A stretch of DNA of 64,000 nucleotides, taken from Roseomonas rosulenta (GTDB lineage Bacteria > Pseudomonadota > Alphaproteobacteria > Acetobacterales > Acetobacteraceae). Location: assembly GCF_016106005.1 (NCBI RefSeq), contig NZ_JACADR010000003.1:1-64000 (forward strand), given 5' to 3'. This document shows, in pieces, positions 7,589 through 38,679 of this stretch; the first letter of the stretch is position 1; each line of letters begins with the position of its first letter. The notes beneath the pieces are model-generated. The model searched no databases and was not told the DNA's origin. It was given only the letters and a program-made list of their open reading frames with translations. The position numbers were made by a program, and so were the translations under genes.

Positions 7589-8044
7589 TCAGAATGGGTG
7601 AATGCGCGGCCAGTTCGTGTTGCCCTTGGCGATATTGCCGGGCACGTCACGCAGCCACATCTGCTGCGCCTGCTCGTGGACCTTCAGGTACAGCTTGTTG
7701 TCCACGACACGCCAGATCTCCGGGTTGCCCGGCGCCTTGTAGGCCTGCGAAGCCGCCCAGGCGCAGTAGCCGTCGAACTGCGGCGCGTAGCGGGCGGGAT
7801 CGGCCCTGAACAAATCGCGCGTCGCCTCCGACTGGAAGAACCAGATCCCGCCGTTGTGGGTCGCGTTGAACCTCGCCACGCCGCGCTGCGCGGTGCCGCT
7901 CTGGTAGCTGGTCGCGTCATAGCCGCTGATCGCGACGGCCAGCTGGTTGCCCGCCACAGCTTCACGCGATGCGCCAATAAGACCGGCCGTGGCACCGAGC
8001 AGCGCGGTCGCTGTTAGACCACGACGCTTGAGGATAATCGACAT
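7589..8044 (-). CDS. Secreted YHS-domain protein
   Basis: This 151-residue protein has a signal peptide (MSIILKRRGL then a hydrophobic core, cleavage near AVAGN) and a YHS-type domain: AISGYDATSYQSGTAQRG, DLFRADPARYAPQFDGYCAW and VVDNKLYLKV. YHS domains are small folds often found near metal or thiol chemistry; the exported single-domain type has no known enzyme activity. A second protein of the same design is at 36622-37098 (shared YCAWA and DIPG or DVPG motifs). Both have a GTAACC-N16-CGAA promoter just upstream, here at 8077-8102, which puts them in the proposed SigF-type regulon. Confidence 0.85.
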   Translation of the reverse strand: MSIILKRRGLTATALLGATAGLIGASREAVAGNQLAVAISGYDATSYQSGTAQRGVARFNATHNGGIWFFQSEATRDLFRADPARYAPQFDGYCAWAASQAYKAPGNPEIWRVVDNKLYLKVHEQAQQMWLRDVPGNIAKGNTNWPRIHPF

Positions 8045-8076: not shown

Positions 8077-8102
8077 TTCGCAGCGCACCTCTGCTTGGTT
8101 AC
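8077..8102 (-). promoter_or_regulatory. Predicted SigF-type ECF promoter for the YHS gene
   Basis: On the minus strand GTAACC (8102-8097) is followed by exactly 16 bases and CGAA (8080-8077). The expected transcript would start near 8070 and leave a leader of about 25 bases with AGGAAAGG before the ATG at 8044. This is a full match to the motif also found at 23231, 28158, 29940, 34498 and 36562. Confidence 0.8.
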
Positions 8103-16634: not shown

Positions 16635-17386
16635 AGGAGGAGTCCACCCCGCCCCGGCGCCGGCGCAAGGCGGCGCGGCCCGGCGAAATCATGGAGGCGG
16701 GCCTCGCCGAATTCGCCGCGCGCGGCTTCGAGGCCACGCGCATGGAGGACGTCGCGCGTCGTGCCGGCGTGGCGAAGGGTACGGTGTTCCTCTACTTCGC
16801 GACCAAGGAGGCGCTGTTCGAGGCTGCGTTGCGCTCCCGTCTGGCCCCTGTGCTGGAGGGAGTGGAGGCGGCGGTGGACGCCTATCCCGGCCCTACCATC
16901 GACCTGCTGCGGATGCTGGTGGGGCATGTGCACACCGGTCTCGTCGCTACTGACGCGGCCGCGGTGATGCGCATGATCCTCGCCGAAGGCCCTCGCTTCC
17001 CGGAGCTGCTGGAAACCTACCACCGGGAGTCCATCGCGCGCGCTACGTCCCTGCTGCGGCGGATCGTGGAGCGGGGCATCGTGCGCGGCGAGTTCAGGAC
17101 CGGTGCAGCGACGGACCTGCCCATGGTGCTGATGGCCCCGGCGCTGATGGCCGCACTATGGCGTCAGACCTTCGACCACCTGGCGCCGATCGAGCCCGGC
17201 CGCTTCCGCGCGGCGCATCTCGAGATGCTGGAGAGGGTACTCTGCGACGGCGGCAAGGAACGTGAGGTGGACGCTGTGCGCGCTGGATCATTGTCCGAAA
17301 GTCGCGCGCCAAAGAACACGGAGGGCGATAGCGAAAAGGCAGGCGGCAAAGACGCGGCGCAAGAGCGGTACCGGAAGCCGCGATGA
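16616..17386 (+). CDS. TetR-family repressor of the DevBCA-type exporter
   Basis: This 256-residue TetR regulator has the DNA-binding domain around residues 24-70 (GEIMEAGLAEFAARGFEATR, then MEDVARRAGVAKGTVFLYF) followed by a helical ligand domain. The last 35 or so residues are polar and unlike the family; they overlap the end of the convergent TauE gene by 99 bases. A shorter active protein starting further in is possible but lacks a ribosome site, while the ATG at 16616 has GAGG upstream. Two matching palindromes at 16567 and 16613 point to control of both itself and the divergent exporter. Confidence 0.88.
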   Translation: MTDGSLKEESTPPRRRRKAARPGEIMEAGLAEFAARGFEATRMEDVARRAGVAKGTVFLYFATKEALFEAALRSRLAPVLEGVEAAVDAYPGPTIDLLRMLVGHVHTGLVATDAAAVMRMILAEGPRFPELLETYHRESIARATSLLRRIVERGIVRGEFRTGAATDLPMVLMAPALMAALWRQTFDHLAPIEPGRFRAAHLEMLERVLCDGGKEREVDAVRAGSLSESRAPKNTEGDSEKAGGKDAAQERYRKPR

Positions 17387-18118
17387 GAGGCGCGCGGCAA
17401 ACGGCGCCACCACGATGGCCGGCAGCGCCAGCAGGATAGCCGCGCTCAGGCTGACGTAGCCGACCGAGTCGGGAGGCAGGCCGGGCTTGCCGTAGCCCAG
17501 GGCGGCAAAGCCGAGCGTCGCCGGCAGCGCGACCGCGATATTGAAAATGGCGCCGGCCCCGACGGCGCGATTGATCGGCGTGCTGAAGAGCCCGAGGACG
17601 GGGCCGCTCAACGTGCCTGCGCCGATCCCAAGGGCGGCGGACAACGCCCCGATGGCTGCCGGCGGCAACCAACCCAGCGGCGGGGCCGGCAGGCCGGAAG
17701 CCAGCACGCCGCGAGCACCCGCCATCATCTGAGTGCCGAGTAGAACGGCGACGGCAGCGAAGGCGCCGACCGACAGGGAGGCCGGGATCAGGGGTGCCAG
17801 TCCCAATCCAAGCAGCGTACCGGCCAGGATGGCGGGCAGCCAGGACCGCAGGACAGGTTGATCGATGGTCCCAGCGGCAGCGTGGGCCGCTGCCGCCGCC
17901 AGTGAGGACAGCAGGATCGCCGCCTGCGCGGTGCCGATGGCCAGCGCGGCGTGATCGGCGTCTGACATGCCGCCCAGTGCGAAGACCTCAAGCAGCACCG
18001 GCACGGCAATGACGCCGCCACCGATGCCGAGCAATCCTCCCAGCGTGCCGATCAACAGTCCCACTGTGGCAAGGACAAGAATCGAAATCACGCCGAGGTC
18101 GGCCAGAGCCGACGTCAT
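17288..18118 (-). CDS. TauE/SafE-family sulfite/sulfoacetate exporter-like protein
   Basis: This 276-residue membrane protein has eight predicted helices and the glycine-rich TauE motif GTLGGLLGIGGGVIAVPVL near the N-terminus, with its second-half repeat GALSAALGIGAGTLSGPVLG. TauE/SafE proteins move sulfite, sulfoacetate or related organosulfur anions across the inner membrane. It is the last gene of the leftward thiol/sulfur operon running from 23185. Its 3' end overlaps the TetR gene by 99 bases, which is unusual for two convergent genes. Confidence 0.88.
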   Translation of the reverse strand: MTSALADLGVISILVLATVGLLIGTLGGLLGIGGGVIAVPVLLEVFALGGMSDADHAALAIGTAQAAILLSSLAAAAAHAAAGTIDQPVLRSWLPAILAGTLLGLGLAPLIPASLSVGAFAAVAVLLGTQMMAGARGVLASGLPAPPLGWLPPAAIGALSAALGIGAGTLSGPVLGLFSTPINRAVGAGAIFNIAVALPATLGFAALGYGKPGLPPDSVGYVSLSAAILLALPAIVVAPFAARLSSRLPVPLLRRVFAACLFAIALRVLWRATFGQ

Positions 18119-18142
18119 GATCCCCGCGACCGCGCCTGTGCC

Positions 18143-19735
18143 CTACCGCGCCGCCTTGCGGATGTTCCACGGCACGATGATGCCTGGCATCGCCAGTACG
18201 CCCGAGATGCGCGGGCTGACGGCAGATGGCAGGTACCATTGCCCGTGCGGCACATAGGGCACCACCCGATAGGCGCTGACATGCAGCGCCTCGAGCAGCC
18301 GCTGGCGTTCGGCCGGCGTCGCCGCGTAGGGAAAGGCATCGATCAGCGCCTGGTGCTCGGCGTCGCAGGGCCAGCCCGGCCAGGCGCGCTCGCAGCTCGC
18401 CTGCATCGGCACGTTGCCCACCGGATCGGATGCGCCGAGGCCGTTCCAGAAGGTCAGCCCGATATGCCACCCGCCCTCGCTCGGCGGGCGGCGATTGGCG
18501 CGGCGACCGGCCATGGAGGCGAAATCCGTCGCTTGCACATCGGTCCGGAAGCCGACTGATTGCATCTGCTGCGCCAGGACGAGCGTGGCCGCATGCACAA
18601 ACGGGTTGTCGGTCGGGTCCATGATGACGATCGGGCTGCCATCATAGCCGCTCTCGCGCAGCAATTGCCGCGCACGCTCGCGCGCCGCCGGCGTGCCAAG
18701 GCCGGGTGGCACGCCCGCATTCGTCTCCTGCGGCGAGCCGCAGACGAAGAAGGCATGGCAGACCTGGTACAGCGCCGGGTCGGGGAACATCCCCTGGAGG
18801 ATTTCCTCCTGGTTCACCAGCAGCATCAGCGCCTGGCGCGCGCGCACATCGTTGAAGGGCGGGTGGATGTGGTTCATGCGGATCATGCCCGGCGCGCCGA
18901 GCGTGTTGGTGCGGATGATGCGCATCCCCCGCCTCTGCAGCATCGGCAGGAAATCCACGCCTGGACTCTCGATGTAGTCGAGCTCGCCCTGGATCAGCGC
19001 CAGCACCGCGGTCTGCGCATTGGCGATGTTCAGCCATTCCACGCGATCGACATGCACGACCTTGCCGCCGGCGGTGCCGGAAGCGGGCTCGGTGCGCGGC
19101 ACGTAGTTCGGGTTGCGACGATAAACCACGCGCGAGCCCGGCACCCATTCCTCCCGCACGAAGATGAAGGGGCCGGAGCCGTTGGTGCTCTGGATCGCGG
19201 TGAACGGATCGGTCGCGGCGACCGCGGCGGGCATGATCGCGGGCATGTTGCCGGAGGGCTTGGACAGCGCGTCGAGCATCAGTCCGTAGGGCCGGTTGAG
19301 CGTCCAGACAACCGTCTTGCCGTCGGATTCGGCCACAAGCCCGGTGGTGATCGCCATGATCTGGCGGCCATGCGGATCGCGCGCGCCCCAACGGCGCAGC
19401 GAAGCCACCACGTCGTTCGCCGTCACCGGGGCGCCGTCGTGAAAGGCCAGCCCGTCGCGCAGCGTGAAGCGCCAGACCAGCGCATCGGCGGAGACCGCAT
19501 GGGCGCCCACCATCTGCGGCTGCGGCCGCTGTTCGGCGTCGCGGCCGAACAACTGGTCGTAGATCATATGAGCATGGCTCTGCACGACGCCGGCCGTGGT
19601 GTTGATCGGGTCGAGCGTCTGCAGGTCGGCGTTCGGCACGATGCGCAGGATTCGCTCGGGCGGCACGGCCTGCGCCAGGGCCAGGCCGGGCAGTGCCACG
19701 AGGGCCAGCCAGAGGGCGAGATTACGCAACCACAT
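18143..19735 (-). CDS. Family-5 (peptide/glutathione-type) ABC substrate-binding protein
   Basis: This 530-residue periplasmic binding protein has a signal peptide (LALWLALVALPGLALAQA) and the family-5 signature LRIVPNADLQTLDPINTTAG, with RFTLRDGLAFHDGAPVTAND following. Family-5 proteins bind di- and oligopeptides, nickel or glutathione. No permease or ATPase gene accompanies it; instead it lies between a GST gene and a TauE exporter in a thiol-related operon, so glutathione or a glutathione conjugate is a reasonable guess. Cysteines at VCHAFFVCGSP and ASCERAWPGWPCD probably form disulfides in the periplasm. Confidence 0.87.
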   Translation of the reverse strand: MWLRNLALWLALVALPGLALAQAVPPERILRIVPNADLQTLDPINTTAGVVQSHAHMIYDQLFGRDAEQRPQPQMVGAHAVSADALVWRFTLRDGLAFHDGAPVTANDVVASLRRWGARDPHGRQIMAITTGLVAESDGKTVVWTLNRPYGLMLDALSKPSGNMPAIMPAAVAATDPFTAIQSTNGSGPFIFVREEWVPGSRVVYRRNPNYVPRTEPASGTAGGKVVHVDRVEWLNIANAQTAVLALIQGELDYIESPGVDFLPMLQRRGMRIIRTNTLGAPGMIRMNHIHPPFNDVRARQALMLLVNQEEILQGMFPDPALYQVCHAFFVCGSPQETNAGVPPGLGTPAARERARQLLRESGYDGSPIVIMDPTDNPFVHAATLVLAQQMQSVGFRTDVQATDFASMAGRRANRRPPSEGGWHIGLTFWNGLGASDPVGNVPMQASCERAWPGWPCDAEHQALIDAFPYAATPAERQRLLEALHVSAYRVVPYVPHGQWYLPSAVSPRISGVLAMPGIIVPWNIRKAAR

Positions 19736-19749
19736 GCTTCGGGTCTCCG

Positions 19750-20400
19750 TCAGGCGAGGATGGCGCCGCGCGGCACGGCCATGCCGCGCTGCACGGCCGG
19801 ACGCTGGGCGAGGCGCGCGTGCCAGCGCGCCACATGCGGGGTGAGCGCGAGATCGTGCTCGGCCCAGCCGTGGCGGGCTACCCAGGGGAAGGCAGCGATG
19901 TCGGCGATGCTGTAGGCGGTGCCTGCCAGATAGGTCTGCGCGGCCAGCCGGCCATCGAGCAGCCGATACACCCGATCGACCTGCCCCAGGGCATAGGCGC
20001 GTGCCGCCGCGGGCTTCTCAGGCGCCAGCTCGGTCCAATGATGTGCCTGACCGGTGGCGGGGCCGAGGCCGGTCAGCGCGACCATCAGCCACGCCAGTGT
20101 ATCCGAGCGCGCCCCGCCCGAGGTCGGCAGGAAGCGGCCATGCGCCTCGGCCAGATGCAGCAGGATGGCGCCGCTTTCGAACAGCACCAGCGGCTGCGCG
20201 CCGGCGGCTTCCTCGACCAGGATCGGCACCTTGCCGAAGGGGTTCAGCGCCAGGATCTCCGGCGCGAACTGCGCCCGCGCGCGGATGTTCACGCCGGTCA
20301 CCCGGTAATCGAGCCCAAGCTCCTCCAGCAGGATCGACACGCGATGGGTGTTCGGCGTCGCCCAGCCATAGAGATGGCGACTGACGACGGGATCATTCAT
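19750..20400 (-). CDS. Glutathione S-transferase (Ure2p/YfcG-like)
   Basis: This 216-residue GST starts HLYGWATPNTHRVSILLEEL, the N-terminal domain of the nu/Ure2p class in which Thr-Pro-Asn replaces the catalytic Cys or Ser. It continues with NPFGKVPILVEE and VLFESGAILLHLAE, and the C-terminal helical domain ends YLAGTAYSIADIAAFPW. These enzymes reduce disulfides with glutathione. The ATG at 20400 overlaps the stop of the YeeE/YedE gene; a long upstream open frame in that gene is spurious. It shares its class with the GST genes at 23936 and 24663, on the other side of the thioredoxin promoter region. Confidence 0.9.
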   Translation of the reverse strand: MNDPVVSRHLYGWATPNTHRVSILLEELGLDYRVTGVNIRARAQFAPEILALNPFGKVPILVEEAAGAQPLVLFESGAILLHLAEAHGRFLPTSGGARSDTLAWLMVALTGLGPATGQAHHWTELAPEKPAAARAYALGQVDRVYRLLDGRLAAQTYLAGTAYSIADIAAFPWVARHGWAEHDLALTPHVARWHARLAQRPAVQRGMAVPRGAILA

Positions 20401-21509
20401 TTGGTTCTCATTCCAAACATCGGCCGCATCCTGATCCCGATCCAGCAGCCTGGCATCGCGGCGGCGAGCCATACGAAGCCGTGCAGGCTGCCCGATGATG
20501 CGCCACCGAGGAAGGCGCCGACATTGCAGCCGAAGGACAGCCTGGCGCCCACCCCCATCAGCAGCCCGCCCAGCGCCGCCCCTGTGGCACCGCGCCAGCC
20601 GATCGGCGTGCCGTGCCGCAACCGGCCTTGCCCTGCCGCAGCGAGAAGGGCACCGAGCAGCAGCCCTACATCGGACAGCGAACCGTGCATCGCGAGCAGC
20701 GGACCGTCGAGCGTTTCCCGTGTCCAGCCGGACGACCAGAACTCGAAGCCAGAAAGGTCCCATCCCAGGGCTTGCAAGGCTTGTGCGCCCCAAAGCGTCA
20801 GGCCCATCGTGATGCCCCAGGGCGTGCCCGAGACGAGGAACAGCGCCGCGGCGCCGGCCCCAATCACCGCGCCTGCCAGCAAGCGCTCGCGCGACGGCCG
20901 CGCTCCACGCAGAACCACCATCGCGCCGAGGCCGAGCAGCACCTCGGTCACCACGAGCCCGCCCCAGGGGCCAAGCAGGGCAGGCAGATCGATCTCGCCA
21001 AGGCTAGGCAGCCGGAGTGCGGCGGGGAGCATCAGGCTGCCCAACACGCCGCCGAAGCAGAAAAATGGGAGTGCTACCCACATCCGGCGCGACCCCTGGC
21101 CGGCCGCGACCAGGGTGCCGGACCCGCAGCCGTTGGTGATCTGCATGCCAACGCCAAAGACCACTGCGCCGACCAACAGAGAAAGCCCGATCGGGGCGAC
21201 GAACCGCCCATAGCCCTCCACCAGCACGCCGACGGGCAGCACGATCAGCGCTGCTACCGCGGGCACGATGAAGGCTGCGCCGAGCGTGCGGCCATCACGC
21301 TCCACGAGCAGCGCGCGAAATCCGCCGGCGAAGCCGTAGTCGAGCCAGACAAACATGGCGCCAAGCAGGATCGCCACCGCCAGGACCGGCAGAAGCGCCG
21401 CATCGCCAATTCCGGAGATGCCCGCAATGGCCAGAACGGTGCCGGCCGCCCCGAGCAGGAGGCTCGCCACATGCACCCGCGGCTGCGCGGCCGAGAGCGC
21501 GCCCGCCAT
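20397..21509 (-). CDS. YeeE/YedE-family thiosulfate/sulfur transporter
   Basis: This 370-residue membrane protein has nine or more helices and the two paired motifs of the family, QITNGCGSGTLVAAGQGSRR in the first half and GARLSFGCNVGAFLGG in the second. The conserved Cys in each motif passes thiosulfate or related sulfane sulfur through the membrane in the characterised members. The start is ATG 21509, one base after the DUF302 stop, and the stop overlaps the GST start. This central position suggests that the operon deals with reduced sulfur compounds. Confidence 0.9.
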   Translation of the reverse strand: MAGALSAAQPRVHVASLLLGAAGTVLAIAGISGIGDAALLPVLAVAILLGAMFVWLDYGFAGGFRALLVERDGRTLGAAFIVPAVAALIVLPVGVLVEGYGRFVAPIGLSLLVGAVVFGVGMQITNGCGSGTLVAAGQGSRRMWVALPFFCFGGVLGSLMLPAALRLPSLGEIDLPALLGPWGGLVVTEVLLGLGAMVVLRGARPSRERLLAGAVIGAGAAALFLVSGTPWGITMGLTLWGAQALQALGWDLSGFEFWSSGWTRETLDGPLLAMHGSLSDVGLLLGALLAAAGQGRLRHGTPIGWRGATGAALGGLLMGVGARLSFGCNVGAFLGGASSGSLHGFVWLAAAMPGCWIGIRMRPMFGMRTK

Positions 21510-21510
21510 G

Positions 21511-21984
21511 CTATTCGGCGGCCTTGCGAACCAGGGTTTCGATGAAGGCCTCGGTGTTGCGCTGGCCCTCGGGCGGGACGGTGACGCCGTGACGGGCAAA
21601 GACCCGCTCTGCGATATCCGCCCCGGTGCTGCGGGTGATGAAGGTACGGCCCTGGTCGTCCTCCCACACCAGGACACGCATCGGCAGGTCGATGGCGAGC
21701 GTCGGGTTGGCGGCCATGCCCGGCGTACCGGCGCGCGGATTGCCGAACAGGACCACCGTGCGCGCCCGCAACGTCATGCCGACATCGCGTGCCGCGGAGG
21801 CGTGGTCCACCTCGGTGAAGACGATCCAGCCGGCCTCGCGAACCGCGGCCGTGAAGCGATCGAGCGTTGCGCGCGTCCCATGCGCACTTGGTCTGGTCAC
21901 GAGACCCGCCTGCTGCGCATTGGCAGGAAGGCTGGCCGCAAAGATCGTGAGCGCCGCGCCGAGGAAGATTGTGCGGCGCCTCAT
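21511..21984 (-). CDS. Secreted DUF302 protein
   Basis: This 157-residue protein has a signal peptide (MRRRTIFLGAALTIFAASLP, cleavage near ANAQQ) and one DUF302 domain: FTAAVREAGWIVFTEVDHA, VVLFGNPRAGTPGMAANPTL and DLPMRVLVWED. DUF302 proteins are small soluble folds often located beside sulfur transporters and thiosulfate-oxidation genes; no activity is proven. ATG 21984 is preferred over an upstream ATG because the signal peptide begins there. Two-Cys chemistry is absent. It lies directly upstream of the YeeE/YedE gene in the same operon. Confidence 0.88.
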   Translation of the reverse strand: MRRRTIFLGAALTIFAASLPANAQQAGLVTRPSAHGTRATLDRFTAAVREAGWIVFTEVDHASAARDVGMTLRARTVVLFGNPRAGTPGMAANPTLAIDLPMRVLVWEDDQGRTFITRSTGADIAERVFARHGVTVPPEGQRNTEAFIETLVRKAAE

Positions 21985-22054
21985 CGGATGTTCGCGAGGT
22001 TCATCGTCGAAAACTCCTCCTTGTTCTTGTTGCATTGCCGATTCTTGACGCCGC

Positions 22055-22773
22055 TCAGAACCGGGTGATCAGATCCACCCAGCCATCCGGCAACGCCGCC
22101 GTCAGCACCGCCTCCACCCGTCGGTCCAGGCCGCTCAGCATGGCCACGCCAACCAGCGCCACAACACGCCGCCCAGTGCCGGCCGGCCCCAACCCCCCGC
22201 CTTGGCCATATGGCGACGCAACGCCGGCATGGCACCTCGTGCCACCGTGCCGAGCGCCAAGAGCGGCAAGGCCGCACCCAGGGCGAACGCCGCCATCACC
22301 ATTGTGGCCTGCGCGGCTGTCCCGGCCTGGGCGGCCAGGCCCAAGGCCGCGCCGAGCGCAGGCCCGGTGCAGGGCGCCCAGGCCACGCCCAGCACGACGC
22401 CGAGCCCGAACTGACCGCCAAGCCCCTGCGCCGGCATCTGCTGCGCCAGGGCGGAGATCGGCGCCATCATCGCCTCACCCGCCATGGTCAGGCGTGTGGC
22501 CAAGCCCGCGACCACCAACGCGAGGCCCGCCAGCAGCAGCATCACCGCGGACCCGATCCGCAGCACCTCGGGGTCGAAGCCGATCGAGGTCGCCAGCAGG
22601 CCAAGCACGACGCCCAGCCCGGCAAAGCCGATGACCAGGCCACCCGCCAAAGCCAACGGTGCCAAGCGATGCTCGGCGGTCGCGGCACCGAGCACGATCG
22701 GCAGCAAGGGCAGCACACAGGGCGAAAGGCTGGCGAGGATCCCCGCCAGCCCGGCCGGCAACAATGTTCCCAT
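22055..22773 (-). pseudogene. ccdA: CcdA/DsbD-type transmembrane electron carrier, frameshifted
   Basis: The start MGTLLPAGLAGILASLSPCV carries the first catalytic Cys, and GVAWAPCTGPALGAALGL the second. CcdA moves reducing equivalents from cytosolic thioredoxin to the periplasm and would feed the exported thioredoxin encoded just upstream. The original frame ends early at 22135 with an out-of-place WRWLAWPC tail. Near 22162 a one-base deletion (relative to the expected codons) throws the frame off; the other frame continues VALVGVAMLSGLDRRVEAVL to a natural stop at 22055. It is either a real recent mutation, in which case the final helix is lost, or a sequencing error. Confidence 0.82.
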
Positions 22774-22783
22774 GGCCGCGGCG

Positions 22784-23185
22784 TCAGACGGCGCGGCGGA
22801 TCAGGTCGCGGATCTGCGTCGCGTCGGTCACGCCGATGATGCGGCCGCGCTCCTGCGCGCCGTTGAAGGCGATGATCGTGGATTGCTGCCGAACGCCGAG
22901 GCGGCGCAGCGCATCGTTCTGCGTGTCGAAGTCGACGGTGAGCAGCAGCGCTGATGCCAGCGCCGGCTCCGCCAGGGTAGCGGCCACATGCGGCGCCTGG
23001 GCGCGGCAGGTCGGGCACCAGGGTGCCGTGACCTCGATGATCAACGGCCGACCGGCGGCCTGCGCCGCGGCGAAGGCTGCGTCGGACCAGGGCGCGCGCT
23101 CGGCGGCGCGGGCGGTCGAGGCAGCGGCGGCGACCCAGCTGAAGGCGAGTGCGGCGAGCAGCGGGCGGCGGGGCAGGTGCGGCAT
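22784..23185 (-). CDS. Exported thioredoxin-fold protein
   Basis: This 133-residue protein has a signal peptide (RRPLLAALAFSWVAAAAS, cleavage near ARAAE) and a thioredoxin fold with the active site APWCPTCRAQ (Cys57 and Cys60). Ile, rather than Pro, stands before the usual cis-Pro region (RQQSTIIAFNG), so this is a DsbD-gamma-like or thiol-oxidoreductase variant in the periplasm. It receives electrons from the CcdA gene 10 bases downstream. The ATG at 23185 has GAGGAGAA upstream. A perfect GTAACC-N16-CGAA promoter lies at 23231-23256, making it the first gene of a leftward seven-gene operon. Confidence 0.88.
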   Translation of the reverse strand: MPHLPRRPLLAALAFSWVAAAASTARAAERAPWSDAAFAAAQAAGRPLIIEVTAPWCPTCRAQAPHVAATLAEPALASALLLTVDFDTQNDALRRLGVRQQSTIIAFNGAQERGRIIGVTDATQIRDLIRRAV

Positions 23186-23230
23186 GGTGGTTCTTCTCCT
23201 CGATGGCACGGGCAAGCCCAGTGAGGCGCC

Positions 23231-23256
23231 TTCGCTCGGCTTCGATGGAAGGTTAC
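23231..23256 (-). promoter_or_regulatory. Predicted SigF-type promoter of the thioredoxin operon
   Basis: On the minus strand GTAACC (23256-23251) and CGAA (23234-23231) are separated by 16 bases. Transcription would start near 23224, about 40 bases before the thioredoxin ATG. It is a full match to the motif upstream of the sigma factor gene at 29940-29965. Confidence 0.82.
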
Positions 23257-23300: not shown

Positions 23301-23322
23301 TTCTAGAACGAACGCTCTAGAA
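23301..23322. promoter_or_regulatory. TetR operator upstream of the tetR-GST operon
   Basis: TTCTAGAACG (23301-23310), AA, CGCTCTAGAA (23313-23322) is an inverted repeat with 10-base arms and one mismatch, 17 bases upstream of the TetR ATG. The CTAGAACG half-site is like those of other YcdC/AcuR-type TetR regulators. It probably controls the rightward TetR-GST-GST-peroxiredoxin operon. Confidence 0.65.
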
Positions 23323-23339: not shown

Positions 23340-23939
23340 ATGGCACGCGCCCGTGAGTTCGACGACACCGCTGTCCTTGACGCCGCCACCGACCGCTTCT
23401 GGCGGCAGGGGTACGCCGCGACCTCGGTGCGCGACCTCGGTGAGGCGATGGGGCTTGTGCCGGCGAGCCTCTACAACGCGTTTGGCAGCAAGCACGCGCT
23501 GTTCGCGCTCTGCCTTGACCGCTACCTCGACCGCAACATGCGGGAACGGATCGAGCGCCTGGAAGCGCAGCAGGCGCCACGTGCTGCCATCGAGGCCTTC
23601 CTGAACGAGATCGTATCGCGTTCTCTTGCCGATCCGCGTGGGTGCCTGCTGGTCAATTCAGCGCTGGAAGTCGCGCCGCATGATGCGGAGATCGGGGCTG
23701 TCATCGCCGCGCGGCTTGGTGAGTTGGAGGCATTCTTCCACCGTTGTGTTCTCGCTGGGCAGCGCGATGGGAGCATCGCCGCGGCGCCGTGCGCGCGCGA
23801 CCTCGCGCGGCTGCTGCTGACCACCGTGATGGGCTTGCGCGTGCTGGCGCGCAGCAAGCCGGAACCGGCCCTGCTGCGGGGCGCCGCGCGCCAGGCGTTG
23901 GCCCTGCTCGATCCTCCTCCCACGGACCAAGCGACATGA
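23340..23939 (+). CDS. TetR-family regulator of a GST/peroxiredoxin operon
   Basis: This 199-residue TetR regulator has the helix-turn-helix FWRQGYAATSVRDLGEAMGL, then VPASLYNAFGSKHALF, and a C-terminal domain of the AcuR/YxaF class beginning IEAFLNEIVSRSLADP with the shared sequence RGCLLVNSALE. It overlaps the following GST gene by 4 bases (ATGA), so it is the first gene of the operon it regulates. The near-perfect palindrome at 23301 is the likely binding site. A related regulator at 31145 controls an SMR pump. Confidence 0.9.
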   Translation: MARAREFDDTAVLDAATDRFWRQGYAATSVRDLGEAMGLVPASLYNAFGSKHALFALCLDRYLDRNMRERIERLEAQQAPRAAIEAFLNEIVSRSLADPRGCLLVNSALEVAPHDAEIGAVIAARLGELEAFFHRCVLAGQRDGSIAAAPCARDLARLLLTTVMGLRVLARSKPEPALLRGAARQALALLDPPPTDQAT

Positions 23940-26615: not shown

Positions 26616-27128
26616 CCGGCTTCGCCGAGATCCGCGAGGCTGATGCGTCCCCGCGATCGCGGTCATCTCCGCCGAGATTAGGCATGCGTCGGGCCTGCCC
26701 CTGGTGAACCTGATCTGGCGCCATTTCGCCGCGCTGCCCGGGGTGCTGCCCTGGGCCTGGGCGGCCGTCGCGTCGATCATCCGCTCCACCGCGATGGAGG
26801 CGGCGCGCGGCCGGGTCACGGCAGGCATCGCGCTGCCCCCGTCAGGCCCTTTCGATTCGCGCGAAGCTGGGCTCTAAGCCGGAGAAATCGCACGGATCAC
26901 CGCGGTTCTCGACGATTATACTCGCGGCAACCTCACCAACCTGCTGGCGCTCACCGCGCTGCGGCTGCGTCTCGAGCGCCCGCAACTGCGGTCATGCGCG
27001 CCGTTGCCCGCCAGCGACCCACGGCCGCACCAGAGCTTGATCCGCCGCCGAGCCTGGCCAGCCTGTCGCCGGAGCGGGCGCCGCACGCTCCTGGCGCGAT
27101 GGCGCGTCCTCGGGCAGGCTGGTCATGA
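26612..27128 (+). pseudogene. DehI-family halocarboxylic acid dehydrogenase, decayed
   Basis: The plus strand reads FAEIREADAS, then after a lost base near 26655 AIAVISAEIRHASGLPLVNL and WRHFAALPGVLPWAWAAVAS. After a TAA at about 26875 in the same frame comes EIARITAVLDDYTRGNLTNL and LALTAL, then another frame shift near 26990. This sequence order matches DehI, a non-HAD dehalogenase of about 250 residues acting on both 2-haloacid enantiomers. At least two frameshifts and a stop make it dead. It would be the last gene of the dehalogenase operon, overlapping the HAD stop (TTGA). Confidence 0.72.
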
Positions 27129-28118
27129 TTCGGCGCGAATTTCGGCCTCCCGCACCAGGCGGCCCCAGCGCTCGGTCTCGGCGGCGACGAAAGCCACGCT
27201 GCGCGGCTCTTCCCAGCCGAGCACATCGAAGCCGGCCTCGGCCGCGCGGCCGGCGGTCTCGGGATCTGCCATGGCGGCCGCGGCTGCTTCGGCGATGCGG
27301 CTGCGTAGCGCCGCAGGTACCGCGGTGGCGGCGACCAGTGCGGTCCAGCTACCGATCTCGATCGCCGGAAAGCCGGCCTCCGAAACCGCAGGTATCGAGG
27401 GCAGCAGCCGGTGCCGCGCCGGGCCGGTCACCGCCAGTGCGCGCAATCGCCCACCCTGCACCTGAGCCAGCGCGTCGGGGAGGTTCGCGAACATGAAGTC
27501 AATCCGCGCGCCGAGCAGATCGGTGATGGCCGGCGCGCCGCCGCGATAGGGCACGTGCTGCAGGCCGACCGCGCCCGGCACTTCGCGCCGGAACAGCTCC
27601 AGCGCCAGATGCGCCGGCGTGCCGCTCCCCGATGAGCCGCCATTCAGCGGCCGCTGCTGCGCAAGCTGTGCCAGATCGGCCAGCGTGACCGCCGGCGAGC
27701 CGGCCGGCACCACCGCGACCAACGGCAGCGCGCCGAGCAGCGTCAGCGTCGCTGCATCGGCGCGGAAATCATACGGCGCGTCGGCTACGAGCGTGGCGTT
27801 GATGGCGTGGGTCGAGGTGATGGTGAGCAGGGTGTGGCCATCGGGCGGGGCGCGCAGGGCGGCTTCGGCTCCAAGCAGGCCGTTGGCGCCGGCGCGGTTC
27901 TCCACGACCACCGCCACGCCCCATACGATGCCGAGCCGACGCGCCAGCAGACGGGCGGCGATATCGGTCTGCCCACCGGGCGGGAAGGGCACCACCAGGC
28001 GGACCGGCCGGGTGGGGAAGCGGTCCGTGTCGGCGCTGGCGACTGGCGCACCCAGGACGGCCGCTCCGCCCAGGCCCAACATAGCGCGCCGCGTGGCGCG
28101 AGCGCGCGATACGGCCAT
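27123..28118 (-). CDS. Bug/TctC-family solute receptor with SigF-type promoter
   Basis: This 331-residue periplasmic binding protein has a Tat-like signal peptide (RARATRRAMLGLGGAAVLG, cleavage near VASAD), PTRPVRLVVPFPPGGQTD and the mid-protein signature HVPYRGGAPAITDLL. No TctAB permease is nearby. The ATG is at 28118 with GGAGAG upstream; the frame extends 95 codons further but that part is not conserved. Unlike the other two Bug genes in the window it has a perfect GTAACC-N16-CGAA promoter at 28158-28183. Its 3' end overlaps the tail of the dead DehI gene by a few bases. Confidence 0.9.
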   Translation of the reverse strand: MAVSRARATRRAMLGLGGAAVLGAPVASADTDRFPTRPVRLVVPFPPGGQTDIAARLLARRLGIVWGVAVVVENRAGANGLLGAEAALRAPPDGHTLLTITSTHAINATLVADAPYDFRADAATLTLLGALPLVAVVPAGSPAVTLADLAQLAQQRPLNGGSSGSGTPAHLALELFRREVPGAVGLQHVPYRGGAPAITDLLGARIDFMFANLPDALAQVQGGRLRALAVTGPARHRLLPSIPAVSEAGFPAIEIGSWTALVAATAVPAALRSRIAEAAAAAMADPETAGRAAEAGFDVLGWEEPRSVAFVAAETERWGRLVREAEIRAES

Positions 28119-28157: not shown

Positions 28158-28183
28158 TTCGCTACTGCGCCCGTCGAGGTTAC
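28158..28183 (-). promoter_or_regulatory. Predicted SigF-type promoter of the Bug gene
   Basis: GTAACC (28183-28178) and CGAA (28161-28158) on the minus strand are 16 bases apart; the start codon at 28118 follows 40 bases downstream of the second element. It is an exact match to the motif. Confidence 0.8.
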
Positions 28184-28568: not shown

Positions 28569-29222
28569 TCAGCCCACCGGGTGGCCGCTGCGCATGAGTC
28601 GCGGCCCGAGCACCCCGGCCAGCACTGTGACGACCAGCACGGACAGGCCATGCCACGCCAGCACCATCGCGGCTGCATCCAGGTAGTGAATGAAGCTGAG
28701 CCCGACACTGGCGAGCGCGGCTGCGGACAGTCCGCCCAGCGCCGCCACGGGGCTTGCACGCAGCCATGTGGCGTGGCGGGCGAGCCAGAGCATCGCAACG
28801 GTGAGCGGCACGCCGAGGCCGGCGATGAACACCAGGCAAGGCACGCTCATGCCGATCTGCAGCGCCTCCGGCCCCAGACGCGCCATATCCTGCAGGCAAC
28901 CCCACCCCATCGTCGCGAACCAGGCGGCAGCGGCGGGAAGCGGCAGCAAGGCCCAGTTCCGGCTTCGCTCGGGCAGGGCGATTTGGAAGGCCGCGAAAGC
29001 AGCCAGCACCCCGGTGGCCAGGGCCGCGATAATTTGCGGCAGGTCGAAGCCCCCGGCGAGGCGCTCCGCAAGGTCATCCCGCAGGCCGAAAACCAGCACC
29101 GCTACGCCGATAACAGCCGCCACGATGCCGAGCCAGACTGCGGTGGCCCGTGCGGGGTGCGGCGCCGGCCGGACCGGGCGCAGGTCGGCGGCGAGGCGGT
29201 GGATCAGGTCTTCGCTGTGCAT
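28569..29222 (-). CDS. nrsF: NrsF-type (DUF1109) membrane anti-sigma factor
   Basis: This 217-residue DUF1109 protein has six predicted membrane helices (starting AVWLGIVAAVIGVAVLVFG) and a short cytosolic N-terminus, MHSEDLIHRLAADLRPVRPA. NrsF proteins hold the cognate ECF sigma factor at the membrane; in Caulobacter cysteines take part in sensing chromate and cadmium. Two cysteines are present here, Cys109 (MGWGCLQD) and Cys129 (SVPCLVF). It starts 8 bases after the sigma gene stop and is co-transcribed with it. Confidence 0.88.
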   Translation of the reverse strand: MHSEDLIHRLAADLRPVRPAPHPARATAVWLGIVAAVIGVAVLVFGLRDDLAERLAGGFDLPQIIAALATGVLAAFAAFQIALPERSRNWALLPLPAAAAWFATMGWGCLQDMARLGPEALQIGMSVPCLVFIAGLGVPLTVAMLWLARHATWLRASPVAALGGLSAAALASVGLSFIHYLDAAAMVLAWHGLSVLVVTVLAGVLGPRLMRSGHPVG

Positions 29223-29229
29223 GGGCGTG

Positions 29230-29874
29230 TCACTCTTCCGTGCCGAAGCGTCGCCGTAAAGCATGCAGCGCGCGATGGGTGGCAACCTTGAGCGCGCCCA
29301 CGCTCATGCCCGAACGCTGGCTCGCATCCGCCAGGGTCAGGTCCTGGATCTTCGTCAGCCGGAGCGCGGTGCGCTGCGCTGGCGGCAGGTCCTCGATGGC
29401 CTGTCGCAGGTTTGCCGCGGCACGCCGCGCGTCCAGCTCGACCTCCGCGGCAGGCTCGCCCGAAGCGATCTCCCCCGCTGCGTCCACCGGAAGCTGGCGC
29501 CGGACCCTGCGACCGCGTGAGCGAACACGGTCTAGCGCACGCCGCTCAGCGATGGCGACGAGCCAGGGACGGAAGGGACGTGCGGCGTTGTAGCTGTCCC
29601 GCGCCCGGTGAATCGTGAGCAGCGTGTCCTGCACGGCGTCTTCCGCCTCGGTCGCGTCACGCAGGCGCGCGCGGCATATGGCCCGCAGAAGCGGCAGGCA
29701 CTCGCGGAGCAGCGCTTCATAGGCGCGCGCATCGCCGGCCTGCGCGGCCGCCATCATTCGCGACCAGCGCAGATCGCGCGCATCCCGCTCGGTGGCCGTG
29801 GCCGCCTTGCTGACTTCGCCCAGGGTCACGTTGAACGAACCCACTCGGCATGCTGGCACGCTGGCATGGGACAT
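29230..29874 (-). CDS. ECF RNA polymerase sigma factor (SigF-like)
   Basis: This 214-residue sigma-70-family factor has region 2 (AYEALLRECLPLLRAICRAR, EAEDAVQDTLLTIHRARDSY, RPFRPWLVAIAERRALD) and region 4 (IEDLPPAQRTALRLTKIQDL, then LADASQRSGMSVGALKVATH). The ATG at 29874 has AAGGG upstream; ATG 29910 and GTG 29829 are alternatives. It is followed by a NrsF-type anti-sigma factor. The motif GTAACC-N16-CGAA upstream at 29940-29965 also occurs before seven other loci in this window, so it probably reads its own promoter and those genes in response to metal or thiol stress. Confidence 0.88.
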   Translation of the reverse strand: MSHASVPACRVGSFNVTLGEVSKAATATERDARDLRWSRMMAAAQAGDARAYEALLRECLPLLRAICRARLRDATEAEDAVQDTLLTIHRARDSYNAARPFRPWLVAIAERRALDRVRSRGRRVRRQLPVDAAGEIASGEPAAEVELDARRAAANLRQAIEDLPPAQRTALRLTKIQDLTLADASQRSGMSVGALKVATHRALHALRRRFGTEE

Positions 29875-29939
29875 CCGGATGGAACCCTTCGAAGAATGGC
29901 CGGCGAGCATTCAGGCAGGGCGCGTCGCACAGCCCTCCA

Positions 29940-29965
29940 TTCGCCTGAGCGGCCTTGGAGGTTAC
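29940..29965 (-). promoter_or_regulatory. Autoregulatory SigF-type promoter
   Basis: GTAACC (29965-29960) and CGAA (29943-29940) on the minus strand are separated by 16 bases. Transcription would begin near 29933, giving a leader of about 58 bases to the ATG at 29874. The exact match in front of the sigma gene itself links the motif to this sigma factor. Confidence 0.85.
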
Positions 29966-32272: not shown

Positions 32273-32974
32273 TCACAGTGGCAGGAAACGCGGCGCCTGA
32301 ACCTCCGCCATCGCGACGCCGCCCAGGTCGTCGGTATCGGCCGACAGCGCCAGGTGCGTGGGGAGCGGTGCCAACTCGCCAAACGCTGCACGGTAGTCGG
32401 CAGCCGGATCGACCCTTTCGTCGTGCCAGCGGCCGAAGGGCGCCTCCGGCCCGCGCAGCACGATCAGCACGCCGTCCGGCGCGATGTGCGGGTTGGCGGT
32501 GACGGTGCCCGGCGGCGCTCGTCCGCCCCACACATAGGTGAGCACGCGCCCCGAGAAGGCGCCGCCTAGCAGCCCCGCGCGCAGCCCCCGACGGAGCACG
32601 GCGCCAAACCCGCCACCGCGCCCGGCACCGGCGAACAACAGATGCACGCTGGCCGGCCGGTCATCGGCGCCGATCGTCGCTGCATCGCTGGGCGCCGGCG
32701 CCGCGAGCACACGCCAGCGCCAGGCCAGGCGGTAGCCGCCGCCCGGGACCTCGTCCTGCCTGGTCGAGCGCAAGAGAAAGCCGACCGCGCTTTCGGCGGT
32801 CATGACGACCATCCCGTGCGGCCGCCCGATGAACCGCGCCGCGGCACGTCCTGGCACATCGAGGCAGCGCCAGCCCTCGGCCATCAGCGACGCGTCGGCA
32901 CCTGCAGCCGGCCGGGCCGCCAGAGAGGGCAGGACCGTCAGGATCAGCGGCAGCGCGCGACGCGGCGTCGTCAT
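32273..32974 (-). CDS. DUF3047 exported protein
   Basis: This 233-residue protein has a signal peptide (RRALPLILTVLPSLAARPAA, cleavage near AGADA) and the DUF3047 domain: GWRCLDVPGRAAARFIGRPH, RLAWRWRVLAAPAPSD and VHLLFAGAGRGG, ending in PTHLALSADTDDLGGVAMAE. DUF3047 folds as a beta-sandwich of unknown function and is often found with glycosyltransferases. It starts at ATG 32974, overlapping the stop of the glycosyltransferase. It is the last gene of a leftward cluster. Confidence 0.87.
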   Translation of the reverse strand: MTTPRRALPLILTVLPSLAARPAAGADASLMAEGWRCLDVPGRAAARFIGRPHGMVVMTAESAVGFLLRSTRQDEVPGGGYRLAWRWRVLAAPAPSDAATIGADDRPASVHLLFAGAGRGGGFGAVLRRGLRAGLLGGAFSGRVLTYVWGGRAPPGTVTANPHIAPDGVLIVLRGPEAPFGRWHDERVDPAADYRAAFGELAPLPTHLALSADTDDLGGVAMAEVQAPRFLPL

Positions 32975-33663
32975 CGCGCGCGGTTCCGTGCGGAATCGTA
33001 AAGTTCGGCCAGGCGTTCCGGCGCGACACCCAGCGCATACAGCAGGTGCACACGCAGCCAGCCCGCGATGATCGCAACCCGCCCCCGCCCGGCAAACCGT
33101 CGCGACGAGGTGACCAGCGCCGGCGTCTCGATGCGCAAGGTGGGGCCCGCGCGTTCCATCCGACGGACCAGATCGAAATCCTCCATCAGCGCGATCGGGC
33201 GGATGCCGCCGATCGCATCGAGGGCCGTGCGGCGGACGAAGATGCCGCTGTCGCCGTAATAGATGCCGTGCCGTCGCAAGCGGGCATAGAAGCCCTCGAG
33301 CCAGCGGGAGAATCCCTCCGCCCCGTCGAACAGCAGGCTGAAATTGCCGCCCGGCGCTTCTGCCCGCCGAGCCAGCGCAGCCTCGATCGCCACCAGCCCG
33401 CCAGGTGGGAAGGTGGTGTCGGCATGCAGCATCAGCAGCACGCTGCCCCGCGATGCCGCAATGCCGCGGGCCAATTGCCCGCCGCGCCCGGGCGGGCCGC
33501 AAACCCATCGCGCGCCAGCCGCGTCGGCTGCCGACCGGGTGCCATCCGTGCTGCCGCCGTCGCTGACGATGATCTCGCCAAGCGAGACCTCGGCGCGCAG
33601 CTGCGCCAGCAGCGTCGGCAGGCATTGCGCCTCGTTCAGTGTCGGGATGATGACGGAAATCAC
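32971..33663 (-). CDS. TIGR04283-family glycosyltransferase
   Basis: This 230-residue GT-A fold glycosyltransferase begins MISVIIPTLNEAQCLPTLLA, with the nucleotide-sugar motif VSDGGSTDGT and the metal-site stretch LMLHADTTFPPGGL (H-A-D). Later YYGDSGIFVRRTALDAIGG and MEDFDLVRRM (acidic acceptor motif) match the TIGR04283 family of small bacterial glycosyltransferases. Substrate and acceptor are unknown. ATG 33663 overlaps the stop of the ferritin-like frame by 4 bases. Confidence 0.9.
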   Translation of the reverse strand: MISVIIPTLNEAQCLPTLLAQLRAEVSLGEIIVSDGGSTDGTRSAADAAGARWVCGPPGRGGQLARGIAASRGSVLLMLHADTTFPPGGLVAIEAALARRAEAPGGNFSLLFDGAEGFSRWLEGFYARLRRHGIYYGDSGIFVRRTALDAIGGIRPIALMEDFDLVRRMERAGPTLRIETPALVTSSRRFAGRGRVAIIAGWLRVHLLYALGVAPERLAELYDSARNRAR

Positions 33664-34612
33664 GCGCTAGCCTCGGCGAAGAGGCTGTCTTCCCCCGCTC
33701 CGATCAGACCCACCCGACGAAATCTGGCCTGAAGGCGGCGCCAACCCGTCTCAAGACGGGCCTCGGGAGCCGCACGAGCGAAGGCAAGGCCGTGATCCGC
33801 CGCGGCGGCGGCCGCACAATCGCGCCAAAGGCACCGCAATCGGCGATGGAGCTCAAGCCGCACCTCGATCTGCTGGGCCTGCAGGGCCGCCGCGTGCAGC
33901 AGCACGCGGCCGAGCGCGAGGTGCCGCCCTTCGTCGCGCGCCGATAATCGCGAAATCTGCTGCATGACCGGGCACGGGAAGTCGCGTGCCAATTCCTGCT
34001 GGATGGCCAGCGCCTCGCTTTCCAGCACCACATGCGTCGCCAGCACCAGACCCACGGCCGAACCCCGCCAATCCTGGATATGGCCCAAGGCCTGGACCAG
34101 CAGGGGGCGCGGTGGTGCGATGTCGCCTATGCGGGCGAGATAGCGCGCATAGGCTTCGACGTGCCGCGCCTCATCCGCGATCTGCGTCGCCATGGCCTGG
34201 CGAAACGGGCCTTCCGGCAGCAGCGGCAGCAGCGTCTCGCAGGCCGACTTGGCGACCTGTTCGCCGTGCAGGAACTGGCTGGTCAGGATCACATGGTTGC
34301 GGCGCGGCAGCCACCAGGGGCGTTGCGGTGGCACCTACCAATCAACGTCCCGCGTGGCCGACCACGCCTGTTCGGCCGCCTTGTCCACCAGCACGCCGCA
34401 ATATCTCGTCGCCTGACCGGAGCCAGCGAAGCCCTCCCCGGGCGGAGCTGCGGATTTGCATGGCTGCATGGTTGCGCTCCCAAGCCAATGGAACGCCTTC
34501 GGCATGGTAGCGCCCGAGGTTACGGCGCATCGCTCGGCGGTCCGCAGGAGCGCCGGCTTCAAGAGCGCCGGCGATGAGCTGCGGCGGTGGGGCCGCGTAA
34601 CCTTCGTCGCCC
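33660..34612 (-). pseudogene. Ferritin-like diiron protein split by a stop codon
   Basis: From GTG 34334 the frame reads WWLPRRNHVILTSQFLHGEQ, QIADEARHVEAYARYL, VLESEALAIQQEL and LSARDEGRHLALGR. The glutamates and histidines (E-x-x-H twice) are the diiron ligands of a ferritin-like four-helix bundle. Directly before GTG stands a TAG, and before it in the same frame ARDVDW, which is the expected upstream sequence. Further up, the sequence continues in another frame (PPPQLIAGALEAGAPADRRA). The intact gene would therefore begin near 34610 and has suffered one frameshift and one nonsense change. A short protein from GTG 34334 may still be made. Confidence 0.65.
34498..34523 (-). promoter_or_regulatory. 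Possible SigF-type promoter of the ferritin-like locus
   Basis: GTAACC (34523-34518) and CGAA (34501-34498) on the minus strand are separated by 16 bases, a full motif match. It lies inside the presumed original N-terminal coding region of the ferritin-like gene, so it may be a promoter for the shorter frame or a coincidental match. A plus-strand motif lies 74 bases away at 34597. Confidence 0.55.
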
Positions 34613-34622
34613 GTCAAGCGAT
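34597..34622 (+). promoter_or_regulatory. SigF-type promoter of the DoxX/reductase pair
   Basis: GTAACC (34597-34602), 16 bases, CGAT (34619-34622); the last base differs from CGAA. The transcript would start near 34628 with a leader of about 20 bases before the DoxX ATG at 34649. Confidence 0.7.
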
Positions 34623-34648
34623 AGCAGAGTGACAGACCGGAGAGAGAC

Positions 34649-35071
34649 ATGACCCCGCCTGCCGATCGCCTGGCGCTGTCGCTGCTGTTGCTGCGTCTCT
34701 CCCTTGGAATTTTCTTCCTGCAGTGGGGCGTAGAGAAGTTCGTCGTACCCGGCACCACCACGGCGATCTTCCGCAACTTCTACGGTTTGGCGGTCGATGG
34801 CGTGCTGCCCTCGGTGCTCGGCGGCGCGCAGATCGCGCTGGCGTTGGCGTTCGTCGCCGGGGTGGTGCCGCGCGTCAGCTACGGCCTCGTGACGCTGCTG
34901 CACTTCGTGACCGTCATCGTCACCATCCCGCGGCTGATCTCGCCGTGGAATCCGGTGAGCAACCACTTCTTCATCGCCGGCGTGCCGGTACTGGCCGCCT
35001 TCGTCACGCTCTACCTGCTGCGCGACAGCGATCGCTGGACCTTGCCGCGAATGTTGCGGCAGCAGGCCTGA
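34649..35071 (+). CDS. DoxX-like membrane protein
   Basis: This 140-residue protein has four predicted helices: ALSLLLLRLSLGIFFLQWG, then VLPSVLGGAQIALALAFVAG, YGLVTLLHFVTVIVTI and FFIAGVPVLAAFVTLYLL. The N-terminal Arg and the W-x-x-x-K of the first helix (LQWGVEKFV) match the DoxX family. It forms an operon with the flavoprotein reductase 4 bases downstream and has a SigF-type promoter. DoxX subunits pair with thiol and redox enzymes in other bacteria. It is a different gene from the DoxX at 9296. Confidence 0.87.
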   Translation: MTPPADRLALSLLLLRLSLGIFFLQWGVEKFVVPGTTTAIFRNFYGLAVDGVLPSVLGGAQIALALAFVAGVVPRVSYGLVTLLHFVTVIVTIPRLISPWNPVSNHFFIAGVPVLAAFVTLYLLRDSDRWTLPRMLRQQA

Positions 35072-35074
35072 GCC

Positions 35075-36553: not shown

Positions 36554-36561
36554 CGCCGCGC

Positions 36562-36587
36562 GTAACCCTCGGCGCATCTGCAGCGAA
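36562..36587 (+). promoter_or_regulatory. SigF-type promoter of the YHS-TVP38-DUF547 operon
   Basis: GTAACC (36562-36567), 16 bases, CGAA (36584-36587). Start would be near 36594; the YHS ATG is at 36622, 28 bases on, with GAGGAG upstream. It begins 9 bases after the reductase stop. Confidence 0.82.
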
Positions 36588-36621
36588 AAGCGCGTCGAGA
36601 CCCAACGAGGAGAGCATCACC

Positions 36622-37098
36622 ATGCCGACCCCCGCCATTCGGCTCGATCGCCGGAGCCTTGCGGCGCTGTTCGCAGGCCTCGCCATCATCGCCGACAGCC
36701 CGGCACAGGCTGCCTCGCCCGCCATCTTCACGCCGCGCTCGGGCCTGGCGCTCGACGGCTACGACACGGTGGCCCTCTTCACGCAGGGCCAGCCGGTGCA
36801 GGGCGATGCACGCTTCGAGACGGTCTGGCAGGGGGCGCGCTGGCGCTTCGTGAGCCAGGATCACCTGGACCGGTTCCTTGCCGACCCGGCGCGGTTCGCC
36901 CCGCAATATGGCGGCTATTGCGCCTGGGCGGTCGGCGCACGGAACGCGCTGGCCCCGGGCGATGCCCGCTACTGGCGGATCGTGGATGGCAAGCTCTACG
37001 TGAACTACGACTCGGGTGTGCAGCGCCAATGGGTGCGCGACATTCCGGGCTTCATCCTCGCCGCGGACCGCAATTGGCCGGCGATCCTGACACGCTGA
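36622..37098 (+). CDS. Exported YHS-domain protein
   Basis: This 158-residue protein has a signal peptide (RRSLAALFAGLAIIADSPAQ, cleavage near AQAAS) and the YHS-type sequence ALDGYDTVALFTQGQPVQGD, FLADPARFAPQYGGYCAWAV, RIVDGKLYVNYDSGVQRQW and VRDIPGFILAAD. The family is the same as at 7589-8044. GTAACC-N16-CGAA lies upstream. It is the first gene of a rightward operon with TVP38 and DUF547 genes. YHS proteins of this exported type recur with metal or thiol stress operons, but a catalytic role is not known. Confidence 0.87.
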   Translation: MPTPAIRLDRRSLAALFAGLAIIADSPAQAASPAIFTPRSGLALDGYDTVALFTQGQPVQGDARFETVWQGARWRFVSQDHLDRFLADPARFAPQYGGYCAWAVGARNALAPGDARYWRIVDGKLYVNYDSGVQRQWVRDIPGFILAADRNWPAILTR

Positions 37099-37122
37099 AC
37101 CGCATTTAGACGAGCGAGCGAC

Positions 37123-38621: not shown

Positions 38622-38679
38622 GTCCGGTGCCCTTGGCCTGGGGCGCCGCGCTGCCATGTTGCCGTGAAGAGGAGAAACC

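Follow-up and report, generated by a model that had tools for sequence, protein, structure and literature searches.

Gene organization of the locus

We analyzed positions 1 to 64,000 of contig NZ_JACADR010000003.1 of Roseomonas rosulenta (hereafter the window), a 64-kb stretch of a 5.28-Mb genome assembled in 671 contigs, with regard to a set of seven thiol- and sulfur-related genes located at 17288–23185. All seven genes lie on the minus strand in the same direction, and each was above its curated Pfam cut-off. The genes and the promoter that precedes them are as follows (loci of other genomes are denoted by L numbers).

23231–23256, minus strand: operon promoter of the SigF (ECF16) type, an exact GTAACC-N16-CGAA, with 45 bp between its end and the trx ATG; same place in L013–L015
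22784–23185, minus strand: trx, thioredoxin fold with an N-terminal signal-like sequence and a WCPTC active site (PF00085, 43 bits; nearest solved structure, 5zpv)
22135–22773, minus strand: ccdA (DsbD_TM, PF02683), shortened by a 2-bp insertion; the original stop would be at 22055–22057
21511–21984, minus strand: duf302, secreted-type, cysteine-free DUF302 protein (PF03625, 60.8 bits; solved DUF302 domain 7tj1, E 2e-20)
20397–21509, minus strand: yeeE/yedE (Sulf_transp), membrane protein (PF04143, 131 bits; aligned to 6leo and within its family)
19750–20400, minus strand: gst, YfcG-like (Nu-class) glutathione transferase (GST) with no signal peptide (PF02798/PF00043; 6tah/YfcG)
18143–19735, minus strand: sbp5 (SBP_bac_5), secreted, orphan family-5 solute-binding protein (PF00496, 202 bits)
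17288–18118, minus strand: tauE (TauE/SafE), membrane protein (PF01925, 118 bits)

The genes are separated by 10 bp (trx/ccdA), 1 bp (DUF302/YeeE), 14 bp (GST/SBP), and 24 bp (SBP/TauE), and the yeeE stop overlaps the gst start by 4 bp (ATGA). The ccdA/DUF302 gap is approximately 150 bp from the present ccdA stop, and would be approximately 70 bp if ccdA were intact (stop 22057–22055, DUF302 start 21984). A preliminary description of this DNA, made from the sequence alone, had placed seven leftward genes behind a SigF-type promoter at 23231, with overlaps or gaps under about 75 bases. The gene set and the promoter agree with our results, as does the spacing at every junction other than ccdA/DUF302, which the frameshift has widened. 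No sigma-70-like promoter was found inside the set, and its three terminator-like sites, against 3.0 in shuffled sequences, are not above chance. The proposed thiol/sulfur theme is also supported, and for the combination, which had seemed not to be a standard operon, no description was found in the open-access literature searched.

The ccdA gene of the window carries two extra bases, GTGTTG[TG]GCGCTGG, at 22157–22165 compared with three relatives (L013–L015), in which the frame runs on to ...GGVLALVGVAMLSGLDRRVEAVLTAALPDGWVELITRF and stops after DLITRF/ELITRF. The ccdA of L118 is likewise intact. The DsbD_TM domain was detected in the window CcdA, but the insertion removes its last helix and thus leaves the helix set incomplete. 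The insertion is either a mutation or an assembly error.

SigF promoter and SigF island

GTAACC-N16-CGAA is the published consensus of ECF16 (PMC3420878, citing Staron et al.; PMC8315932), a group of extracytoplasmic function (ECF) sigma factors. Six exact sites were found in the window, against 0.02 in shuffled sequences, and when spacers of 10–23 were scanned the motif was present with a spacer of 16 only. Six of the seven GTAACC hexamers in the window belong to these exact sites, and the seventh belongs to a near-match ending in CGAT at 34597. The whole genome contains 12 exact sites (the reversed pattern, used as a control, gave 1), so that 6 of the 12 fall in 1.2% of the genome. An open reading frame lies downstream of every exact site in the window. 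In addition to the operon promoter, the sites and the sigF-nrsF pair are as follows.

8077–8102, minus strand: SigF site before a YHS protein (7589–8044)
28158–28183, minus strand: SigF site before an orphan TctC/Bug receptor (27123–28118)
28569–29219, minus strand: nrsF, anti-sigma factor (DUF1109/NrsF; PF06532, 103 bits, cut-off 26.8)
29230–29910, minus strand: sigF, ECF sigma factor (Sigma70_r2/r4), approximately 6 kb from the operon
29940–29965, minus strand: SigF site before sigF-nrsF (autoregulation)
34498–34523, minus strand: SigF site before an AurF/ferritin-like protein and a TIGR04283 glycosyltransferase
34597–34622, plus strand: near-match GTAACC-N16-CGAT before DoxX and a dihydrolipoamide-dehydrogenase/MerA-like gene
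36562–36587, plus strand: SigF site before a second YHS protein, then TVP38 and DUF547

The seven-gene set is one unit of a SigF island, because six exact sites and the sigF-nrsF pair occur in the same window. We infer from the promoter that transcription of the operon would depend on SigF. The arrangement expected of ECF16, a sigF gene and an NrsF/DUF1109 gene in one autoregulated operon, is present here (site at 29940–29965). Among the other targets, the MerA-like gene behind the near-match has counterparts with an exact SigF site before merA in L090, L113–L115, and L126.

The SigF-NrsF pair of Caulobacter crescentus (ECF16) shares with that of the window the ECF sigma factor with DUF1109/NrsF, the promoter sequence, the autoregulation, and the envelope targets (PMC3511200). 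The targets listed for it are YedY, DUF692, DUF2063, DUF2282, and DoxX; duf302, yeeE, trx, ccdA, tauE, gst, and sbp5 are not among them. EcfF-OsrA of Bradyrhizobium and BcrS-AbcS of Brucella belong to the same sigma/anti-sigma family and promoter class and have redox-responsive cysteines (PMC3420878, PMC8315932). Their reported common target class is methionine-sulfoxide reductase, and the DUF302-YeeE module was not found for them in the parts of those reports that were searched.

Paired cysteines of NrsF/OsrA govern the redox response, at positions 131/181 in Caulobacter and 129/179 in Bradyrhizobium (PMC3511200, PMC3420878). An alignment of NrsF over alphaproteobacteria (18 rows, of which L136 and L143 were out of frame and were given no weight) gave two layouts. 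The first has cysteines at alignment columns 203 and 254, in an HC motif; it was assigned to the Caulobacter type from its spacing, in an alignment that did not contain the Caulobacter sequence. The second, which includes the window and is shared with several alphaproteobacterial families, has cysteines at columns 159 and 203 and His at 254, with Tyr in the flanking position of the window protein. The window NrsF therefore lacks the full C131/C181-type pair: one position is kept, His/Tyr takes the place of Cys181, and an earlier cysteine is present instead. The sulfite-responsive RpoE1/RpoE4 of Sinorhizobium were considered as a precedent and dropped, because their published placement is ECF26, not ECF16.

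Four side observations concern the island. A TIGR04283 arsenosugar-type glycosyltransferase, DUF547, TVP38, and a radical-SAM protein are grouped near SigF sites at 32971–39762. SigF sites elsewhere in the genome (L101, L102, L104, L106) stand before genes of catalase-like, radical-SAM, DoxX-like, and lipase-like types. In L082/L083, too, the lipase-like target follows a SigF site. A second sigF-nrsF pair of the genome (L103, G000:C89) is preceded by a SigF site and the gene of an acyltransferase-like membrane protein.

Conservation of the duf302-yeeE core

Conservation was investigated by a YeeE scan of named genomes, family and genus searches, and 40-odd fetched neighborhoods. In Falsiroseomonas tokyonensis and two metagenome-assembled genomes (L013–L015), an exact SigF site is followed by trx-ccdA-duf302-yeeE-tauE, and GST and SBP5 are absent from the operon. 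A 4.4-kb contig of another genus (L118) contains site-sigF-nrsF-site-trx-ccdA-duf302-yeeE as a contiguous array. A SigF site (exact or spacer-relaxed) lies upstream of duf302-yeeE pairs in the same direction in 15 of 16 distinct loci, the exception being L016/L089, and where yeeE occurs with no duf302 (L019, L098) the site is 13–27 bp before yeeE itself. Neither a SigF site nor duf302 was found at any of the distant YeeE loci (<60% identity), or at a locus whose YeeE is 64% identical (L023/L128). The presence of both features at near loci and their absence at distant ones indicate that DUF302 pairing and the SigF site mark one YeeE clade.

On the evidence of these neighborhoods, the conserved unit is SigF site-(trx-ccdA)-duf302-yeeE-(tauE). 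The seven genes had been proposed to form one new system. This proposal did not hold, as the closest relatives lack GST and SBP5 and no other genome among those examined has all seven genes together; it is the five-gene core and its link to SigF, not the seven-gene order, that recur in relatives. The open-access literature searched yielded no description of a module of DUF302 with YeeE, CcdA, TauE, or sigma factors, and no previous report of a DUF302-YeeE unit controlled by ECF16.

Insertion of the GST-SBP5 module

The window and L013–L015 are 91% identical at the nucleotide level as far as the final codons of yeeE, and the identity resumes at approximately residue 30 of TauE. Between these breakpoints lie 2361 bp in the window (gst and sbp5, together with a different beginning of TauE) and approximately 165 bp in L013–L015, so that the first approximately 30 residues of TauE differ. 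The TauE N-terminus of L013–L015 resembles that of L020 and L021, which suggests that the arrangement with GST-SBP in the window is the derived form.

We compared 19 SBP5 orthologues (74–100% identity). GST is directly upstream of SBP5 in 7 of the 19, and an adjacent GST is missing in the other 12. A SigF site occurs within 1 kb of SBP5 in 8 of the 18 other orthologues, whereas the chance expectation is approximately 0.1 by a rough estimate based on approximately 8 sites in a 5.2-Mb genome and 3.6 kb inspected for each gene. SBP5 diverges from SigF site-duf547 or SigF site-merA-tvp38-duf547, immediately precedes SigF site-lipase, or lies upstream of SigF site-merA. The species within one kind of arrangement are not independent, but the occurrence of at least three kinds argues that the linkage is not one inherited accident. 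In L020 and L021, the GST orthologue follows sigF and nrsF as third gene (sigF-nrsF-gst). These results indicate that GST-SBP is a separate conserved module, inserted between yeeE and tauE in the window lineage, and that the insertion joined genes already tied to SigF elsewhere.

It could alternatively be argued that SBP5 and GST are passengers of a chance recombination, functionally unconnected to the sulfur genes, as they are not in the operon of the three closest relatives and SBP5 is located at another place in the F. tokyonensis genome. We regard this as rather unlikely in view of the independent SigF linkage of each gene in other genomes, the tight packing with the ATGA overlap, and the intact reading frame of TauE.

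Comparison of the products with known proteins

The YeeE of the window resembles the thiosulfate importer TsuA/YeeE (6leo) and SoxT in its Sulf_transp fold and keeps the counterparts of Cys91 and Cys293 of TsuA, both of which are described as indispensable (PMC11582611). In contrast, the Cys22 position is occupied by Gly in both the alignment to 6leo and the family alignment, no TsuB/YeeD (TusA-like) partner was found among the genes neighboring yeeE, and the protein is paired with DUF302. Trx and CcdA resemble the DsbD/CcdA-thioredoxin systems, in which a CcdA-type membrane reductase stands beside a secreted thioredoxin-fold protein with CPTC; unlike those, the window genes stand behind a SigF promoter together with the genes of YeeE and DUF302, and the ccdA copy is frameshifted.

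An accessory operon of dissimilatory sulfur oxidation, in which YeeE would be a SoxT-like importer and Trx-CcdA a SoxS/SoxV-like reductant of the Sox system, is an improbable alternative. The genome has two SoxY genes elsewhere, and the YeeE-like SoxT of Hyphomicrobium functions alongside periplasmic thioredoxins (PMC11582611). However, the window contains no sox genes, the promoter is of the SigF type and not a SoxR operator, and the window YeeE family has Gly at the first of the three conserved cysteine positions common to SoxT and TsuA (PMC11582611).

In regards to GST, its best solved matches and its ATPN N-terminal motif are those of YfcG/Nu-class enzymes, yet it scored 163 bits against the PRK13972 model (glutathione-dependent disulfide oxidoreductase, YfcG), below the cut-off of 332. 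SBP5 shares the Pfam family SBP_bac_5 with GsiB, which is its best NCBIfam model (71.3 bits against a cut-off of 594) and its second-best solved protein (E 4e-19). The closest solved protein is 8vdx (E 5e-113), on which nothing relevant, and no ligand, was found in the literature. A structure predicted from 14 close orthologues of SBP5 was poor (mean predicted local distance difference test score, 44.5).

The absence of an ATP-binding cassette permease, already remarked for the window, extends to the orthologues: no Opp/Dpp-type signature was found in the fetched 4–10 kb flanks of 17 of the 18 other loci (18 of 19 including the window), and no Gsi permease lies near SBP5. In the exception, L094, an Opp-type permease signature lies approximately 5.5 kb from SBP5, which thus appears to be an orphan everywhere, possibly not in L094. 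The suggested link of the receptor to glutathione gained no positive evidence, and a salvage pathway in which SBP5 binds glutathione, its disulfide, or S-conjugates, GST processes them, and sulfur products exit via TauE is very improbable, since the GST adjacency and the rank of GsiB are outweighed by the score far below the GsiB cut-off, the much closer 8vdx, the missing permease neighbor, and the 12 orthologues with no adjacent GST.

Neighboring genes

Two tetR genes and one palindrome adjoin the operon.

23340–23939, plus strand: divergent tetR (PF00440), which heads gst-gst-peroxiredoxin-HAD
23303–23320: operator-like palindrome CTAGAACGAACGCTCTAG between the divergent tetR and the SigF promoter, largely kept in L015
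16616–17386: convergent tetR, which shares 99 bp with tauE at the 3′ ends (17288–17386)

Given the palindrome, the TetR encoded at 23340–23939 may also act on the operon.

Proposed function

Taken together, the seven genes probably form one SigF-NrsF (ECF16) transcription unit, in which a sulfur/thiol core of duf302-yeeE is accompanied by Trx-CcdA, TauE, and a recombined-in GST-SBP5 pair. Its likely role is envelope-thiol repair induced by an oxidant or a metal, plus sulfur import. By analogy with Caulobacter and Bradyrhizobium, oxidants or thiol-reactive metals would oxidize NrsF and set SigF free, and the freed SigF would transcribe the operon from 23231–23256. The duf302-yeeE core would then bring a sulfur compound across the inner membrane into the cell. 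Through CcdA, the periplasmic Trx would receive electrons from thioredoxin in the cytoplasm and would then reduce oxidized envelope thiols or supply reduced sulfur to YeeE, and TauE may export an anion such as sulfite. The GST-SBP5 pair would represent a second, separately conserved SigF-linked pair, recombined between yeeE and tauE; GST would serve as a cytoplasmic reductase of glutathione disulfides, and SBP5 would bind a ligand in the periplasm, either to sequester it or to pass it on to a shared permease.

Several points weigh against this reading. The ccdA frameshift may abolish electron delivery in the window strain, unless it is an assembly error, and the gene junctions depend on an assembly in 671 contigs. 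YeeE has two of the three TsuA cysteines, and DUF302, being cysteine-free, is unlikely to relay sulfur covalently. Moreover, because related genomes do not provide independent loci, the counts given above exceed the number of events.

As a more tentative extension, DUF302-YeeE may be the core of an undescribed ECF16-controlled system for sulfur import and envelope-thiol repair in Acetobacteraceae. Trx-CcdA, TauE, a disulfide-reducing GST, and a dedicated orphan SBP would have been added to it lineage-specifically, with the permease-less SBP supplying a periplasmic thiol/sulfur ligand.

To our knowledge, DUF302 proteins are widespread and have no known function, and we know of no substrates for YedE-type transporters besides TsuA/SoxT. 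The link of the DUF302-YeeE clade described here to a redox-responsive sigma factor, through a clear promoter rule, provides testable conditions (chromate, cadmium, copper, HOCl, and singlet oxygen), and Trx-CcdA and TauE are candidate partners of the pair. If the proposal is correct, sulfur transport and thiol reduction would be added to the ECF16 regulon, whose main known functions are the repair of methionine sulfoxide and the buffering of metals.

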